Shown here in pieces: positions 12,453-64,000 of a stretch of 64,000 nt of DNA. The notes under the pieces were generated by a model that was not told the origin of the DNA, did no database searches, and worked only from the letters and a program-made list of their open reading frames with translations. The translations under genes were made by a program, and so were the position numbers. Origin of the DNA: Frankia nepalensis (GTDB lineage Bacteria > Actinomycetota > Actinomycetes > Frankiales > Frankiaceae); contig NZ_JADWYU010000096.1 of NCBI RefSeq assembly GCF_016786325.1, positions 1 through 64,000 of the forward strand, given 5' to 3'. Numbering within the stretch: position 1 is the stretch's first letter; every line of letters starts with the position of its first letter.

Positions 12453-13394
12453 TCAGTCGCGCGGATCGAGACCATGAGACGTGCCCCGGCGCGGCCAGGC
12501 GACGGGGATGCGTTCCAGGATCCCACCCGCGAATGTGCCGTAGAGGCCGAGCGGTTCCAGGTGGACGTAGCCGATGTGGCAGTCGCACATGTCCAGGGGG
12601 CATGGCCGGGGGCGCAGTGCCGCGCGGAACGAGCCGTCGTAGAGGTTTCCCAGGGCGGTCGGGACGAAATGGCAGCGCCGTACCGTACCTTCGCCGTCCA
12701 CGGACACGACGGTTTCGCCGGTTCGGCAGGGCAGGCCGTGGCTGGGGTGCGGGTCGCGGCTGTAGGAGAAGAGTGGGTCGATCTCCGTCCAGTGGGCGGC
12801 CTCGGCGTCGGTGTAGACGCGGCCCTCGGCCGCGTTCACCCACAGGTAGACGGTGCCGGGGAGATCTGCGCGCAGACGGCGCGCGGCGGCCAGGTGATCG
12901 GGCTGCCCCACGACGCCGACGCTGAAGCGCACTCCACGTTCGGCCAGGTCAAGACATTTTCCGAGGAAATGCCCGTACGGCACCTGGCTCGGGTGGTAGG
13001 TGCCCCACAGCGCGAGCCGGGACAGATCCGCGTCGGCCGTCCAGGCGACGCGGTGGCTGAGGTTGGTCTGGATCGCGACGCGTTCGACCCGCGGCAGGTG
13101 GCTGAGCTCCACCAACGCCCGCCGGTACCAGGAACGGGTCAGGCCCTCACCCCACGGTGTGAACAGCACCGAGACGCCCTGGCGCTGCTCTCTGACCCAG
13201 TCGGTGAAACGCTCCAGCGCCGCCCGGTCCGACCGCAGCTGCTCGGGTGTGTCCCGCCGCTTCGCGAACGGACAGTAAGGGCAGTCGTAGTCGCAACTGG
13301 CCAGTGGCCCGCGGTAGAGGATCGTCAGGTGCCGCGTCTGAGCCTCCTCCTGAGGGGGAGCGGCGGGCGTCCCGTCGTGGTGGGGAAGTGTCAT
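12453..13394 (-). CDS. STM4011 family radical SAM protein
   Basis: The 313-residue protein carries the radical SAM cluster motif CDYDCPYC (Cys34, Cys38, Cys41), which binds a [4Fe-4S] cluster and S-adenosylmethionine. A second set of cysteines toward the C-terminus (a CRTGE turn, CHF, then CPLDMCDC) suggests an auxiliary iron-sulfur site like SPASM/twitch domains. Overall it matches the STM4011 family, named after a Salmonella locus and functionally uncharacterised. It is the last gene of a five-gene operon and its start codon shares one base with the stop of the STM4012-like gene (TGATG), indicating translational coupling. The substrate is unknown. Confidence 0.87.
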   Translation of the reverse strand: MTLPHHDGTPAAPPQEEAQTRHLTILYRGPLASCDYDCPYCPFAKRRDTPEQLRSDRAALERFTDWVREQRQGVSVLFTPWGEGLTRSWYRRALVELSHLPRVERVAIQTNLSHRVAWTADADLSRLALWGTYHPSQVPYGHFLGKCLDLAERGVRFSVGVVGQPDHLAAARRLRADLPGTVYLWVNAAEGRVYTDAEAAHWTEIDPLFSYSRDPHPSHGLPCRTGETVVSVDGEGTVRRCHFVPTALGNLYDGSFRAALRPRPCPLDMCDCHIGYVHLEPLGLYGTFAGGILERIPVAWPRRGTSHGLDPRD

Positions 13395-14689
13395 CAGCGG
13401 AGGGTGTAGCCGGTCATCAGGGCGCGAACCTGGGGCGAGAAGAGGGCCGGTCCTATGGCGTCGGAATGGGCCAGGCCTTCAGGCGTCAGCCGGATGGTGG
13501 TCGGGCCCTGCTCCAGCCAGCCGCGTTCGGAGAAGACGGTGAGGTCGAAGTCCGCGGTGACGTCGGTGTGGAAACGCTCGCGGTAGGCGGCGCGGTCGAG
13601 GCCTTCCGCCTGCAGCAACGACTGGATCAGGTGGCGTCGCGGGCGCTCGTCGTCGTCGAGGACGAAACCGACCCGGGCGCTGTCGAAGTCCGTTTCGTGA
13701 ACATAGTCGTCGATGATCGCGCGGACGTGCCTGGTGCCCACCGCGTACTCGAACGAGTAGTGCAGAGTCGAGGTATAGGAACGGGCGCCGCATCCCAGGC
13801 CGACCATTCCGTCGGTCTGGCAGCAGTACTCCGTCCCGGAGACACCGTCCCCGGACGGCAGGCGGAACATGCGCATGGAGACCTGCTCGTAACCGTTGGA
13901 CAGAAGGTGGTCCCGGCCGAGGCTGTAGAGATCCATGCGCTGGTCGTCCCAGTCGAGATCGCGGCGGGCCAAACCCGTCAGGGGGCGGACGTACAAGGGG
14001 TACAGGTACATCTCCTCGGGGCGCCAGGCCAGGCTGGCGTCCAGGGAATGCAGCCAGGTGGCGGGGGTCTGGCCATCGATGCCGTAGATGAGGTCGATGT
14101 TCAGCGTCTCGAAGCCGACCGCGCGGATGCGTTCCAGGGCTGACTCGACCTCGGCCCGTTTCTGGGGACGGCCGGCCGCGCGGGCCTCGGAGTCCAGAAA
14201 GCTCTGCACGCCGATCGAGACGCGGGTGGTACCGCGTTCGCGCAGGAGGGTGAGGCGGTCGGTGGTCGCGGTGGCGGGCGAGGTCTCCACCCCGAGCGGG
14301 ATGGCGCCGAGCGTGGCGAGGCGGGCGCCGATGTCACAGAGGCGTTCGAGTTCGAGGGCTGTCAGGTAGGTGGGCGTGCCGCCGCCGAAGGCCGCCGTGG
14401 CGAACGCGGCGTCCCCCAGGGCGTCGGCGACACAGGCAGCCTGGCGTTCAAGCGCGTCCAGATACGCGCCCGTGAGTTCCTCGGGTGCGCCCGTGCGGGT
14501 GAAGAGGTTGCAGAAACCACAGCGCATCTCGCAGAACGGGACATGCAGGTAGAGGAAGAGCGCGGACCGGTCCTCCGTGGCCCACACCTCTCGCAGGGAG
14601 GGGCGGGGCGACAGCGGGCGGTAGGCGGTCTTGTGCGGGTACGCGTAGACATAGTGCTGGTAGGGGCTGCGCTGGTCGGGGCCGGTCAT
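13394..14689 (-). CDS. STM4012 family radical SAM protein (HemN-like)
   Basis: This 431-residue protein has the radical SAM motif CEMRCGFC (Cys53, Cys57, Cys60) within LYLHVPFCEMRCGFC, the form used by HemN/HemW-type enzymes, plus the AFGGGTPTYL and NIDLIYGIDGQTP segments of that group and a C-terminal HemN-like domain. It fits the STM4012 family, always found with STM4011, 4013, 4014 and 4015 proteins. It is probably not coproporphyrinogen dehydrogenase; its reaction is unknown. It overlaps the upstream hydrolase gene by four bases (ATGA) and the downstream gene by one base. Confidence 0.87.
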   Translation of the reverse strand: MTGPDQRSPYQHYVYAYPHKTAYRPLSPRPSLREVWATEDRSALFLYLHVPFCEMRCGFCNLFTRTGAPEELTGAYLDALERQAACVADALGDAAFATAAFGGGTPTYLTALELERLCDIGARLATLGAIPLGVETSPATATTDRLTLLRERGTTRVSIGVQSFLDSEARAAGRPQKRAEVESALERIRAVGFETLNIDLIYGIDGQTPATWLHSLDASLAWRPEEMYLYPLYVRPLTGLARRDLDWDDQRMDLYSLGRDHLLSNGYEQVSMRMFRLPSGDGVSGTEYCCQTDGMVGLGCGARSYTSTLHYSFEYAVGTRHVRAIIDDYVHETDFDSARVGFVLDDDERPRRHLIQSLLQAEGLDRAAYRERFHTDVTADFDLTVFSERGWLEQGPTTIRLTPEGLAHSDAIGPALFSPQVRALMTGYTLR

Positions 14690-58848: not shown

Positions 58849-59985
58849 CTACCGATGCATCCAGGCCGAGCTGTCGGCGTATTGGGCTTTTCTCTGCCGC
58901 GTGGACCACAGCGGAAAGGCATCGTGGCCGGGTTGGATCGATGTGAGGAGTTCTCTCAGTTCCGGCGCCTCGATCCTGGGCGCTTTGATCGCCTCGGCGA
59001 TCCGCCGGCAGGTGAGAAGGTCGATGCCCCGCTGGCCGGCGTCTTCGACGTATGCCAGCGCTCTCGCCGTGAGGTCGGCGGGACTTGGTTGCTCATCTCC
59101 TGGAGGTAGGGTCTTGAGCTTTCGCCTTTCGTAGTCGATCTCGGATGTGCCCCGTGCACCGCGAACCGCGTCCTCGGCCTCTGCCAGGGAGCGGGTGTCG
59201 GTGAGGAGCGGGGCGAGAAGGCTTCCCTCGTACACCTGACGGAGATCGGCGACGTAGACGTCCGCGCTCGCGTCGTTCAGTTCGACTGTCGCCCCTTCGC
59301 CGCGCAGCTCGACGGTTCCGCGGTGGCCGCGCGCGGCGGCGGCCAGGAGCGCCGTGGCCTCGGTGGGGTGCCATGCGAGGATCGTGCGCACGGCGTCGGC
59401 GTCCTGGTGGCCTACGGATGATGTTCGTCGTCCGCCGAGACCGCGAAGCCGGTTCAGCACGGCGGAGGCGGCGAGTTCGCCGTCCAGGCCCGGCCCGGCC
59501 ACGACCAGCTCCGTGGGCACGTCGAGACTCGCGCAGGCGGCGATGGCCAGGGTGTCGGCGAGCGGGCTCAGGAGTTCGGGCTCGTCACCTCGTGCGACCG
59601 CGTCTCCGCCGACGTCGATGAGCGAAACCTTGTCAACGTCCTCACGTTTGATGATCTCGCTGAGCTGGTCGTGGATTCCGACTGCGCCCTGGGACGGGTC
59701 GAGGAGGAGGAGAGGCGTGTCGATCGACCCCGCGAGCCGCGGGAGGGTCGATCTGCTGGGCGGGCTGACAGCTGTGGAGGACACGATGCGGGCGTTGAGG
59801 TCGCCGAACGGCCGCAGGCCGTTGAAGTCCCCGGCTCGTCGCGGTCCGGGCAACGGGTCGACGCGCAGGCGCTCCCAGGCGTAGGTGAGGATCGCTACAT
59901 CGACGTCGGACTGATCCGCCCGACCGATCATCACTGCGCCCAGGGCGTCGCCGCCGCCGCCGGTGGCCACGACCAGACGTCTCAT
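58849..59985 (-). CDS. DUF1152 domain-containing protein
   Basis: The 378-residue protein begins VVATGGGGDALGAVM, the glycine-rich start typical of DUF1152, and continues with LLLLDPSQG and VSLIDVGGDAVARGDEPEL, a second Gly-rich Asp-containing block. This suggests a nucleotide or sugar-phosphate binding Rossmann-like fold. Function is unknown. It is divergent from the GntR regulator of the lanthipeptide cluster, with a palindromic operator between them, so it may belong to the same regulon. Confidence 0.8.
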   Translation of the reverse strand: MRRLVVATGGGGDALGAVMIGRADQSDVDVAILTYAWERLRVDPLPGPRRAGDFNGLRPFGDLNARIVSSTAVSPPSRSTLPRLAGSIDTPLLLLDPSQGAVGIHDQLSEIIKREDVDKVSLIDVGGDAVARGDEPELLSPLADTLAIAACASLDVPTELVVAGPGLDGELAASAVLNRLRGLGGRRTSSVGHQDADAVRTILAWHPTEATALLAAAARGHRGTVELRGEGATVELNDASADVYVADLRQVYEGSLLAPLLTDTRSLAEAEDAVRGARGTSEIDYERRKLKTLPPGDEQPSPADLTARALAYVEDAGQRGIDLLTCRRIAEAIKAPRIEAPELRELLTSIQPGHDAFPLWSTRQRKAQYADSSAWMHR

Positions 59986-60029: not shown

Positions 60030-60053
60030 GGCCAGTGGCCAATGCCACTGGCC
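60030..60053. promoter_or_regulatory. GntR operator 1 (autoregulatory site)
   Basis: Perfect 10-base arms GGCCAGTGGC and GCCACTGGCC flank CAAT, directly between the DUF1152 gene and the GntR start. It shares GTGGC-N4-GCCAC with two sites downstream of the regulator. Confidence 0.75.
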
Positions 60054-60067
60054 GAAAGGGTGTTGCC

Positions 60068-60814
60068 GTGCCTGACCTTCAGCGGGTGCTTCCGAAGTAT
60101 CTGCAGATCGCGAACCATCTCCGAGATCAGATCCTGCGCGGCGATCTTCGGCCTGGCGCGGAGGTCCCGTCCGAGCGAACCCTTGCTGTCGACTGGAAGG
60201 TCAGCCGACCAACGGCAACGAAGGCCCTGGAGGCGCTGCGCGTGCAGGGCCTGATCGAGTCCCGGCAGGGCTCCGGCAGCTACGTCGTGGATCAGATGGG
60301 CGTTCATCGGCGGGCTCGCGAGCGGTATGGCCGAGGGCGCGAGACTGGTGCGATCTACCCGCCGAACGAGTGGGCCCGCATCGTCGCGGCCGAGATCGTG
60401 GCGGCGCCAGAGCATGTGGAAGCAGCGCTGGGCGGCGACGTGCCGCGGGTGATCCGGCGCCACCGGATCACCCATGGCGACGACGGACCCGTGGAGGTCT
60501 CCACGTCCTGGATCTCTGCCGCCCTGGCCGACGTGGCCCCTCGTCTGCTCCAGACCGAGCGGATCCGCGAAGGCACACTGGCCTACCTCGCGAGCGTCAC
60601 CGGCCTGCGAGCCCGCCTGGCCCGGGATCGGGTCACCGCCCGGCTGGCCACCGACACCGAGGCAGCCGACCTGGAACTGGGCCCCGGGCCGCACGCGGTT
60701 CTGGTGGTACGCCATGTCGTCTGCACCGAGGCGAACCAGCCTCTGGAGTTCGTCGAGGCTGTCTACCCGCCTGAGAGCTGGACGTTTGAGCAGGAATACC
60801 CCGTGACGAGCTAG
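60068..60814 (+). CDS. GntR family regulator with UTRA domain
   Basis: The 248-residue protein has a GntR winged helix (about residues 8-72; YLQIANHLRDQILRGDLRPG, then PSERTLAVDWKVSRPTATKALEALR) and a UTRA ligand-binding domain (about 90-245). It is of the HutC/YvoA type that senses small molecules. GTG 60068 has an AAAGGG site. The gene is flanked by one palindrome upstream and two downstream that share GTGGC-N4-GCCAC, so it probably represses both itself and the lanthipeptide genes that follow. The ligand is unknown. Confidence 0.87.
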   Translation: MPDLQRVLPKYLQIANHLRDQILRGDLRPGAEVPSERTLAVDWKVSRPTATKALEALRVQGLIESRQGSGSYVVDQMGVHRRARERYGRGRETGAIYPPNEWARIVAAEIVAAPEHVEAALGGDVPRVIRRHRITHGDDGPVEVSTSWISAALADVAPRLLQTERIREGTLAYLASVTGLRARLARDRVTARLATDTEAADLELGPGPHAVLVVRHVVCTEANQPLEFVEAVYPPESWTFEQEYPVTS

Positions 60815-60851
60815 GGACCCCGTCGCGAGCGCCGGGTTCTTGCTAAACCAG

Positions 60852-60890
60852 GTGGCATATGCCACTCTGAGGCAAGTGGCATATGCCACT
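60852..60890. promoter_or_regulatory. GntR operators 2 and 3 upstream of the FxLD methyltransferase
   Basis: GTGGCATATGCCAC at 60852-60865 and AGTGGCATATGCCACT at 60875-60890 are perfect palindromes. Their cores start 24 bases apart, in a 308-base region between the regulator and the methyltransferase gene, where they could cover its promoter. Confidence 0.75.
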
Positions 60891-61122
60891 GTCGGCATCA
60901 GTCCTTGATCCGGAGTCCGAAGGTGGCGTCGTCGGCCGAGAGCATGCCGGGGATCCGCTCACAGGCATGATCCGGAGCCGGGGCGCCGAGCGGCTTCCGC
61001 CGCCGCGACCAGCTACGTCACGGGGCTGGACGCCAGCAACCAAAGCCCGAATACCAACGCGCAGACCTTCCAGGAAGCGCCCGAGACCGCGTTACCCGCG
61101 GACATCAGGAAAGGGCACCGTC

Positions 61123-62343
61123 TTGAGCACCAGCACGAGCACCCGGGCTGAGGATCTTCGTAACGCCCTCGTCGACAAGATTGTCGCGGGGCATGTGCGG
61201 CAAGGGCTGACGATGCGCGCCGAGGTGGAGCGGGCGCTGAGGAAGGTGCCGCGTGAGTTGTTCACGCCGGGCGTGCCGCTCGAGGAGGCATACCGGGACG
61301 GCGCCGTCATCACCAAACGCAGCGCCGACGGCGTGAATCTGAGTTCGGTATCCGCGCCCTATCTGATTGCGGAGATGCTGGGCCAGGCGAAAGGCCGGCA
61401 CGTCCTTGAGATCGGCAGCGGGGGGTACAACGCCGCCTTGCTGCGGGAGATCGCCGGGCCAGGCGGGTCGGTGCTGACGGTCGATATCGACCAGGAGGTC
61501 ACCGACCGGGCCCGCGCCTGCCTGGACACGGCGGGCTATTCCGATGTTGAGGTCGTGTGCGCGGACGCCGAGTTCGAGATCGAGCCTGGCCGCGGGTTCG
61601 ATCTCATCGAGGTCACGGTCGGTGCGTGGGATATCCCGCCGGCCTGGATCAGCCAGCTCGCCGAAGGCGGCACCCTGGTCGTCCCGCTCCGCACCTTGGG
61701 CATGACCCGGTCGTGGGCACTGCGGCGCGCCGGGAATCACCTTGTGAGCACCAGCAACCTGCTGTGCGGATTCGTCCCCATGCAGGGCGAGGGCGCCAGC
61801 AAGGGCCGCAGTGTCCCCCTCGGCGACGGCGTCACGCTGTGGCTCAACGAGCATCAGCAGGACATCGACGGCGACCCGGTCGCCGCCGTGTTCTCCCAGG
61901 AACGGCATGAGGCACGGTCGGGGGTGACGGTCCCCAGCGGCCGGCTCTCCGCTGATCTTGACCTGTGGCTGGCGACCCACCTGCCCAATTTCGGCCTGAT
62001 GATTACCGAACTGGCGGCGATCGACAACGGCCTCGTCGTCCCGTCGTGGCGCTTCGGAACCCCGGCGTTCGTCGACGGTGCGACCCTGGCCTACCGGGGG
62101 AAGCTCCGCCAGGTCGACGACACCACGACCGAATTCGAGTACGTCGTCTACGCGCACGGACCCGATGCCGCCAGGCTCGCCGAGCAGATGGCCGACCAGA
62201 TCCGCGCCTGGGACAGGGCCGGCCGGCCTACTTCGACGTTGTGTGTCTTCTCCATCGGCACTCCCGACGCCGATCTTCCTGACGGAATGGTGTTGGACAA
62301 GAAGCACACCCGTCTCGTGTTCACCTGGCCAACCGCCAAGTAG
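61123..62343 (+). CDS. FxLD-system methyltransferase (PIMT-like)
   Basis: The product of 406 residues matches the methyltransferase of FxLD lanthipeptide systems: PRELFTPGVPLEEAYRDGAV at the N-terminus, SSVSAPYLIAEMLG, and the S-adenosylmethionine motif VLEIGSGGYNAALL (94-107), with a C-terminal domain specific to this family. Related PIMT-like enzymes in other lanthipeptide clusters methylate an Asp of the core and lead to isoaspartate or succinimide. The TTG at 61123 is used because AGGAAAGGG precedes it; the longer frame upstream crosses the operators. The precursor and dehydratase genes follow on the same strand. Confidence 0.87.
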   Translation: MSTSTSTRAEDLRNALVDKIVAGHVRQGLTMRAEVERALRKVPRELFTPGVPLEEAYRDGAVITKRSADGVNLSSVSAPYLIAEMLGQAKGRHVLEIGSGGYNAALLREIAGPGGSVLTVDIDQEVTDRARACLDTAGYSDVEVVCADAEFEIEPGRGFDLIEVTVGAWDIPPAWISQLAEGGTLVVPLRTLGMTRSWALRRAGNHLVSTSNLLCGFVPMQGEGASKGRSVPLGDGVTLWLNEHQQDIDGDPVAAVFSQERHEARSGVTVPSGRLSADLDLWLATHLPNFGLMITELAAIDNGLVVPSWRFGTPAFVDGATLAYRGKLRQVDDTTTEFEYVVYAHGPDAARLAEQMADQIRAWDRAGRPTSTLCVFSIGTPDADLPDGMVLDKKHTRLVFTWPTAK

Positions 62344-62438
62344 CGGCCCTCCCCGGGTGCCACTCCCTCTTTTGCGCAGAAGGGGGAATGGTTCCCGGGA
62401 ATGGCTCCCGGGACCGACGGCAGAAAGGACGGCCCTCC

Positions 62439-62576
62439 ATGGACCCCACGGAGTTCCAGCTCAACGTCCACCTCGTCGACGCCGGACCCGCCGGCGCGGT
62501 CGCGTCGGAGGACTGCACCTCCGACGAGTGCGGCTCGGGTGAGACCAGCAGCGACGCCTGCACGACCAACAGCTGA
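62439..62576 (+). CDS. FxLD-type lanthipeptide precursor
   Basis: The 45-residue peptide begins MDPTEFQLNVHLVDAGPAG, the leader pattern of the FxLD family, although the position of the D in FxLD is N (FQLN). The C-terminal 24 residues hold the likely core with Cys26, Cys31 and Cys41, several Ser/Thr residues (for example Thr27, Ser28, Ser33, Thr36, Ser37, Ser38, Thr42, Thr43) and acids Asp25, Glu24, Asp29, Glu30 and Asp39, the latter possible targets for the methyltransferase. AGAAAGGAC lies upstream. It sits between the methyltransferase and dehydratase genes, as expected. Confidence 0.8.
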   Translation: MDPTEFQLNVHLVDAGPAGAVASEDCTSDECGSGETSSDACTTNS

Positions 62577-62584
62577 CGCCAACA

Positions 62585-62614
62585 GGTGGCCCGGCCCCCG
62601 CGGGCCGGGCCACC
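62585..62614 (+). terminator. hairpin between precursor and dehydratase genes
   Basis: GGTGGCCCGGCCC and GGGCCGGGCCACC form a perfect 13-bp stem with a CCGC loop, nine bases after the precursor stop. A partial terminator or mRNA stabiliser here would yield more precursor than dehydratase. Confidence 0.75.
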
Positions 62615-62642
62615 CGCCCAACGGCCACAGGCAGAGGTAGCG

Positions 62643-64000
62643 GTGCACACATACCAAGCGGTGGACGCGGCGCTGATCAGGACCACGACCTTTCCCACCG
62701 GTCTGGAGTTACCACCGTGGCCGGACCTGAACAGCGACGACGTCGCGACCTGGCAGCTGTGGCTGCGGCAGGCATGGGCGTTGGACGGGTTCGCCGTCGC
62801 GGTGCGGGGCGCCTCGCGGGAGTTGGCCGCCCAGGTGGAGCGGCAGCTCGCCTCGCCTGCAGCAGCCGACCGGTCCTCGGTGCGGTCGGTGCGGCGGCTG
62901 GTGGAGACGCTGATGCGGTATTTGCTGCGCTGGACGAGCAGAGCAACCCCGTTTGGGCTGTTCGCCGGCATCGCTCCCGTCGAGTTCGACGCCCGGGCGC
63001 GCGCCGCCTGGGAAGGCGACCACCGGGTGGTGCACCGGCCGGACGGTCTGCTCGTGGCGGAGCAGGCCGGGCGGATCGAAGCGCGGCTGGACATGTTGCG
63101 GACGGTCCCGGTGGTGACCAACAGCCTCGGGTTTGCCCGCGGCAGGGTGTGGGTCGTGCCGGGCGTGAGCGCCGACGGCCAGCTCTGGGACGCCGAGGTG
63201 AACCTGACCCGCCCCGTGCGGCTGGCTGTGGACCTGGCCCGCCGGCCGATCGGGTTCGCCGACCTCGCCGCGAAGCTGGCCGTCGACGCACCGACGGTCG
63301 AGCGAGCGGTCATCGAACGGATGCTGGCCGGCCTGGTGGCCCACCGGGTCCTGGTGACACCGGTACGTCCCCCGATGACCGTGACCGACCCGGCGACGCA
63401 CCTCGCCCGCTACACCCCCGGCCCGGAGCCGGAGCCGGCCGTACGGCCGGCGGCCGACGTTCGAGTGGGCTGTGCGGTGGCGCTGCCTGCGGCGGTGCTG
63501 CGCGAGGCCGAACGCGCCGCTTCGGTCCTCACCCTGGTCGCGCCGGAGATGCCCGGCTGGCGGCCCTATCACCAGGAGTTCCTCGACCGGTACGGACCGG
63601 GGGCGGCGGTGCCTGTCCGGGAACTGGTCGGCGGATCCGGGCTGGGCCTGCCCCCGGGATACCGGGCGTCGCACCGGCGCGCGCCGCGGCTGCTCACCGC
63701 CCGCGACGTCACGCTGGCGAAGATCGCACAGCACGCCGCCCTCGACGGCCGTGCCGAGGTGCTCCTGGGCGACGAGCTGATCGCCGCGCTGACGGTCGCG
63801 GATCGGCCGCCGGTTCCGCACACCGAACTCCGTTTCAGCCTCGCGGCCGAGTCGCTGGGCGATCTTGATCGTGGCGCGTTCACGCTGACCGTGATCAGCG
63901 GTGCCCGGCATGCCGGTGTGACCGTCGGCCGGTTCCTCCACCTGCTCGACCCCGCCGAACAGGAGCGCTTCCGCCACGCCTACGCGACGCTGCCGACCGC
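62643..64000 (+). CDS. lantibiotic dehydratase (LanB-type), cut by window end
   Basis: The open frame from GTG 62643 has no stop before the window end, giving 452 residues. It begins MHTYQAVDAALIRTTTFPTG and contains the LanB N-terminal signature TPFGLFAG (102-109) after an ETLMRYLLRWTSR helix; later parts match the glutamylation domain of lantibiotic dehydratases. These enzymes use glutamyl-tRNA to dehydrate Ser/Thr in the precursor. It should be about 800-1000 residues long in full. An AGAGG site precedes the start. The C-terminal elimination domain and cyclase should lie beyond the window. Confidence 0.87.
   Translation, partial: MHTYQAVDAALIRTTTFPTGLELPPWPDLNSDDVATWQLWLRQAWALDGFAVAVRGASRELAAQVERQLASPAAADRSSVRSVRRLVETLMRYLLRWTSRATPFGLFAGIAPVEFDARARAAWEGDHRVVHRPDGLLVAEQAGRIEARLDMLRTVPVVTNSLGFARGRVWVVPGVSADGQLWDAEVNLTRPVRLAVDLARRPIGFADLAAKLAVDAPTVERAVIERMLAGLVAHRVLVTPVRPPMTVTDPATHLARYTPGPEPEPAVRPAADVRVGCAVALPAAVLREAERAASVLTLVAPEMPGWRPYHQEFLDRYGPGAAVPVRELVGGSGLGLPPGYRASHRRAPRLLTARDVTLAKIAQHAALDGRAEVLLGDELIAALTVADRPPVPHTELRFSLAAESLGDLDRGAFTLTVISGARHAGVTVGRFLHLLDPAEQERFRHAYATLPT

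Follow-up and report, generated by a model that had tools for sequence, protein, structure and literature searches.

Homologues of PIMT are the commonest auxiliary enzymes of class I lanthipeptide clusters, more than 1300 of which encode one (PMC7268733, PMC10787088, PMC13001092). In the olv cluster of Streptomyces olivaceus (OlvA, OlvB, OlvC and OlvSA), LanB and LanC occur together with a PIMT-type methyltransferase that acts on a conserved Asp of the precursor, enclosed by a methyllanthionine ring (PMC9486935, PMC13001092). OlvSA turns Asp into isoaspartate (PMC13001092), while OlvA, compared here by its published description, has an additional N-terminal lanthionine (PMC9486935). The coi cluster of Streptomyces coelicolor (CoiA1, CoiB, CoiC and CoiSA) combines a PIMT-type methyltransferase and a full-length LanB with an extra syn-glutamyl lyase (PMC9486935). 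Isoaspartate lanthipeptides are very common, yet few of their mature products have been isolated. Here, we analysed a window of 64,000 bases from Frankia nepalensis (bases 1-64000 of contig C376, which has 120,151 bases, in a genome of 10.7 Mb), near the end of which a GntR/UTRA regulator precedes a set of lanthipeptide genes; coordinates beyond 64000 refer to the same contig, which was read on downstream to about 79000. Our analysis makes it very probable that these genes are a complete operon for a class I lanthipeptide of the PIMT-associated FxLD type ('lanthimiditides').

The lanthipeptide operon

The genes lie on the + strand in the order GntR/UTRA regulator, FxLD-system methyltransferase, precursor, LanB, LanC and stand-alone lyase. 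An earlier note on this DNA had claimed the order regulator, methyltransferase, 45-residue precursor and LanB for a cluster running past the window; all four genes were found in that order and on that strand, and the LanB C-terminus, LanC and a stand-alone Lant_dehydr_C protein follow downstream. The methyltransferase (61123..62343, + strand; 406 amino acids, PIMT-like, LanSA type) starts with the codon TTG at 61123 and matches TIGR04364 over its full length with 446.6 bits (cut-off 320, E 7.9e-134). It is also matched by PF01135 (E 7.5e-29) and by a PIMT of known structure, 1DL5 (E 1.5e-23). The precursor gene (62439..62576, + strand), with the ribosome-binding site AGAAAGGA upstream, encodes the 45-residue peptide MDPTEFQLNVHLVDAGPAGAVASEDCTSDECGSGETSSDACTTNS, assigned by TIGR04363 and by syntenic orthologues. 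LanB (62643..65579, + strand, its window part extending to 64000) starts with GTG at 62643, comprises 978 amino acids and matches PF04738 and PF14028; its residues R744, R746, R827 and H944 are the equivalents of NisB R784, R786, R826 and H961. LanC (65576-66646; PF05147, E 1e-30) follows outside the window and has intact zinc ligands (C240, C289 and H290), which are conserved across 64 sequences.

The last gene of the operon (66661-67434, outside the window) encodes the stand-alone Lant_dehydr_C protein (TIGR03891, E 1e-58), for which a signature of syn-lyases has been published (PMC9486935, PMC9011353). Alignment of 61 stand-alone lyases with 60 LanB proteins indicates that the arginine pair for the glutamate carboxylate is kept (R54 in 60/61, R56 in 61/61) and aligns with LanB R744/R746. 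The position of the NisB Tyr is taken by Lys (K50, 61/61), where LanB has Tyr in 53 of the 60 sequences, and Arg826 is replaced by Ala (A95; Ala in 57/61), where LanB keeps R827 in 59/60. Loss of the catalytic His base also belongs to the signature; that region aligns ambiguously, with H227 and H231 nearby. As most of the signature for syn elimination is present, the protein is predicted to be a syn-glutamyl lyase.

With this genome's four methyltransferases as queries, 80 named actinomycete loci were gathered, most of which share the order methyltransferase, precursor, LanB, LanC and stand-alone lyase. The earlier note had suggested a comparison with other FxLD precursors; in most related loci, an orthologue of the peptide indeed separates the methyltransferase gene from that of LanB. 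We favour the reading of a functional FxLD-type operon because of the TIGR04364 score, the same operon in most of the 80 loci, the invariant Asp of the precursors, the intact residues of LanB, LanC and lyase, the predicted fold of the lyase, operators that are unique in the genome and recur at the same spacing in others, and the precedent of OlvSA. With a cyclase, an elimination domain and precursor orthologues all present, the note's assignment to an FxLD-type class I cluster with a PIMT-like methyltransferase is supported. The kind itself is already well described, with OlvSA and CoiSA characterised and more than 1300 clusters known (PMC7268733, PMC10787088, PMC13001092): the cluster is one of a large class, part of which has been characterised. 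A description of this cluster's own product was not found in the literature examined.

Several features set the locus apart from its described relatives. Whereas olv has no syn-lyase, a stand-alone lyase and a GntR regulator are present here, and the core differs from that of OlvA by a Glu after the Asp and by an extra Cys directly ahead of the T-x-D-x-C ring. The lyase of the coi system is fused to the methyltransferase, whereas here it is a separate gene at the end of the operon. Closest is a locus of Protofrankia coriariae BMG5.1 (methyltransferase 79%, LanB 75%, LanC 65% and lyase 68% identical), with the core ..SDDCTSDKCGSGETGSDACTTNG; in contrast to the window, it has Lys after the Asp, a LanB without insertion and a different upstream regulator without AGTGGC operators.

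Three further FxLD-type methyltransferases are encoded in the same genome (contigs C25, C353 and C375; loci L009, L023 and L024). Two of them have a precursor, LanB and LanC nearby, with the cores ..SEPCSGDNCTGTGDSAGVTC and ..CDTSDTCGSTCGSACISD. The methyltransferase on C375 has the best TIGR04364 score and is followed directly by a non-canonical nucleoside triphosphate pyrophosphatase-like gene; neither LanB nor LanC was found beside it, nor a precursor, which was specifically sought there.

Precursor core and ring pattern

The precursor consists of a leader with the motif FQLN and a core with S23-C26, T27-S-D29-E-C31 and T36..C41. A hidden Markov model (HMM), for which the window precursor was among the seeds, was run on the 80 loci and the genome's own clusters and returned 76 precursors, 75 of them with a recognisable core; the window precursor matches with E 4.6e-14, a value to be read in light of its own presence among the seeds. 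A search of solved structures with the precursor as query gave no match. Throughout the T/S-x-D-x-C cores the Asp is invariant (75/75) and the first position is Thr in all but one (74/75), the window having TSDEC. The residue after the Asp is Asn in 35, Gly in 28, Glu in 5, Asp in 5, Lys in 1 and Thr in 1 of the 75 cores. Published residues at this position are mostly Gly, also Thr, Asn and Asp (PMC13001092); Glu (in the window, in Frankia and in others) and Lys (in Protofrankia) therefore extend the list. Charged residues after the Asp account for 7 changes on the tree. In this respect, the cluster offers a natural test: can PIMT-type enzymes convert Asp-Glu, as they do Asp-Gly?

A Cys directly precedes the T-x-D-x-C motif in the window and 11 relatives, and all 12 have Ser or Thr three residues ahead of that Cys, a column in which none of the 63 precursors without the extra Cys has Ser or Thr (Fisher 4e-14 by sequence count). 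On the methyltransferase tree, the two traits change in lockstep, twice only (sign test p 0.5), and relatedness therefore explains most of the 12/12 versus 0/63 count. For the same reason, the coupling was dropped as independent proof of an S23-C26 ring. The pattern in the window nevertheless suggests that the extra Cys would form an added S23-C26 lanthionine beside the Asp-containing ring T27-C31, which makes the cluster a natural test, too, of whether an extra S-x-x-C ring beside the modified ring alters the outcome.

An element-type regulator before the operon

The GntR/UTRA regulator (60068..60814, + strand; PF00392 E 1.6e-17, PF07702 E 1.6e-15) is HutC-type and KorSA/SCO3932-like. Its divergent partner is a DUF1152 protein (58849..59985, - strand; PF06626 E 4.5e-74), and the two form a module of the kind found in integrative elements. 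Three candidate operators were mapped. O1 (AGTGGCCAATGCCACT, 60034..60049) lies in the divergent DUF1152/GntR promoter region and has 2 mismatches to the palindrome AGTGGC-N4-GCCACT, which is present in O2 (GGTGGCATATGCCACT, 60851..60866), with O3 (AGTGGCATATGCCACT, 60875..60890) exactly 24 bp after O2. The open reading frame of the regulator can be read from 60035, inside O1; the GTG at 60068, which has a ribosome-binding site, is the likelier start. The perfect 14-bp core GTGGCATATGCCAC occurs twice in the whole 10.7 Mb genome, namely in O2 and O3. The lan operon is preceded by a single intergenic region, where both lie 37-76 bp past the GntR stop and about 230 bp ahead of the first codon of the methyltransferase.

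Like the window GntR, KorSA of pSAM2 and SCO3932 are GntR/UTRA proteins with sites at their own and at a neighbouring gene's promoter, and SCO3932 has been reported to link integrative elements to secondary metabolism (PMC8584621). The motif published for SCO3932, AC[TC]T[AG]TT[GC][TG][GT]ACG, however, differs from AGTGGC-N4-GCCACT, and the gene downstream is here a lanthipeptide operon and not pra. Since neither RepSA nor FtsK was recognised among the genes next to the regulator, in the window or downstream, we call it KorSA-like and not a KorSA or a member of an element. The earlier note had counted the regulator as part of the cluster, which is not normal for such clusters: a recognisable GntR is nearby in only 2 of the 80 related loci, and both are less than 30% identical. 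A literature search combining GntR, operator and lanthipeptide returned nothing relevant.

A wider search over 394 genomes identified relatives of the regulator in 12 further loci in 11 genomes. A GntR orthologue of 88% identity, with the divergent DUF1152 gene alongside, is present in congener G033 (L150, G033:C73:12000-17371). There, the positions of the three operators and their 24-bp spacing are as in the window, and only about the first 85 methyltransferase residues follow; the switch appears to have lost its lan operon. The other relatives are 49-66% identical and mostly reside in integrative elements. Tandem AGTGGC-N4-GCCACT sites with the exact 24-bp spacing were found in 8 of the 12 further loci and in G033, hence in 9 other loci, and an O1-like site lies at the same place in G033 (L150:3270), L166 (7827) and L171 (7231). 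The divergent DUF1152 gene accompanies the regulator in 10/12 (it is missing in L174 and L175), and FtsK/TraSA-like or RepSA genes lie within the stretch read in 9/12. The module of DUF1152, GntR and operators (L165-L173 and L151) recurs in several actinomycete families, mostly beside TraSA/RepSA-like genes.

But why should a switch of this type stand in front of a lanthipeptide operon? Where element genes are present, whatever follows the operators appears to be part of the element; here, that slot holds the lan methyltransferase. We infer that an element-type switch now stands before the operon, with GntR binding, control of the operon and the direction of regulation as predictions. We tentatively propose that a module normally governing transfer or replication genes of an element may have captured the lanthipeptide operon, which we regard as possible rather than probable. 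If so, the isoaspartate peptide would be under element-type repression, perhaps as cargo of an element or, in conflict between mycelia, as a signal or weapon, and one switch would connect two processes that are rarely studied together.

Alternatively, the GntR might be a bystander left by an integrative element, with no role in lan expression. Most of its relatives belong to integrative elements that carry RepSA or FtsK genes, and in Protofrankia (L025), whose lan operon is the closest orthologue, the upstream regulator is another one and AGTGGC operators are missing. This explanation is somewhat unlikely given that O2 and O3 are placed in the sole intergenic region before the lan operon with a core unique to them in the genome, and that the operator half-sites are largely preserved in G033. 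Under the preferred reading, in which the regulator has a role, the adjacent KorSA-like GntR probably controls expression through two operators 24 bp apart before the operon and one before its own gene. An own recognisable regulator with three mapped candidate operators would provide a direct handle to switch the cluster on, by removal of the regulator, and to ask for its function.

Proposed biosynthesis and alternatives

Gene order, protein families, active-site residues, the invariant Asp and the operators with their conservation are read directly from the sequence; from these we infer the following chemical steps, ring connectivity and stereochemistry. The FQLN leader would present the precursor to LanB, which would glutamylate Ser and Thr of the core with Glu-tRNA and then eliminate glutamate, while the stand-alone lyase would act with syn geometry, removing glutamate at selected Thr residues. 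LanC would close the thioether rings, most likely T27-C31 (a methyllanthionine enclosing Asp29), S23-C26 (the extra N-terminal lanthionine) and T36-C41. Given the homology of the methyltransferase to PIMTs of known structure and the OlvSA precedent, its mechanism can be proposed step by step: it would methylate Asp29 inside the T27-C31 ring, and the ester would proceed via an aspartimide mainly to isoaspartate. Conversion of Asp29 to isoaspartate is thus the probable outcome.

Would the mature product instead retain the electrophilic aspartimide? Among PIMT-associated lasso peptides and graspetides, there are known cases of stable aspartimides (PMC13001092), and the Glu following Asp29 may alter hydrolysis. 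We consider this outcome unlikely, as the characterised lanthipeptide OlvA hydrolyses to 70-80% isoaspartate (PMC13001092).

Some observations weigh against a functional FxLD operon as a whole. The precursor scores 28.6 bits with TIGR04363 (E 1e-6), slightly below the cut-off of 30, and 26.8 bits in the genome search. Aspartimide formation is expected to be slower before Glu, the residue that follows Asp29 here, than before Gly. The earlier note had anticipated a LanB C-terminus, a cyclase and a transporter downstream, of which the first two were found; neither a transporter nor a leader protease was recognised among the genes to about 79000. Finally, LanB carries an in-frame insertion of 39 residues in its lyase domain (about residues 758-796; contig about 64914-65033; L007:5915-6034), which is found in 0/59 aligned relatives, and has L963 where relatives have a near-invariant Arg.

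The last two features could mean that the operon is decaying, with the LanB lyase domain damaged by the insertion and the product absent or only partly dehydrated; the reduction of the methyltransferase to about its first 85 residues in G033, where regulator and operators remain, would fit such a course. This scenario appears quite unlikely. The insertion, between the R744/R746 strand and the next helix, is modelled as a disordered loop with a confidence score (pLDDT) of 27-41, all frames are open with a coding-like third-position GC content (0.85, insert included), and the catalytic residues are intact. Moreover, the syn-lyase can do all eliminations in the coi system (PMC9486935). The insertion may do no harm, or it may mark the beginning of decay. 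A mobile element as its origin was rejected: no other full copy exists in the genome, and the ends have 7-bp repeats only.

The predicted structure of the stand-alone lyase (pLDDT 91.8) matches the lyase domains of MadB, NisB and MibB with Z of 17-18 and the pyridine synthases PbtD/TbtD only slightly lower, a fold search that did not separate glutamyl lyase from [4+2] cyclase. That the protein performs other chemistry, such as a thiopeptide-type [4+2] cyclisation as raised by Walker et al. (PMC7268733), is nonetheless highly improbable, since the protein retains both hallmarks of syn-lyases, the Arg pair that binds glutamate and the catalytic Lys, and the related domain in CoiSA eliminates glutamate experimentally, giving D-allo-L-methyllanthionine (PMC9486935).

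Neighbouring genes

The nearest genes after the lan operon encode a short-chain dehydrogenase/reductase (SDR), a TetR regulator and a cytochrome P450. Elsewhere in the window, at 12453-14689 on the - strand, two adjacent genes encode proteins with CxxxCxxC-like motifs suggestive of radical S-adenosylmethionine enzymes.

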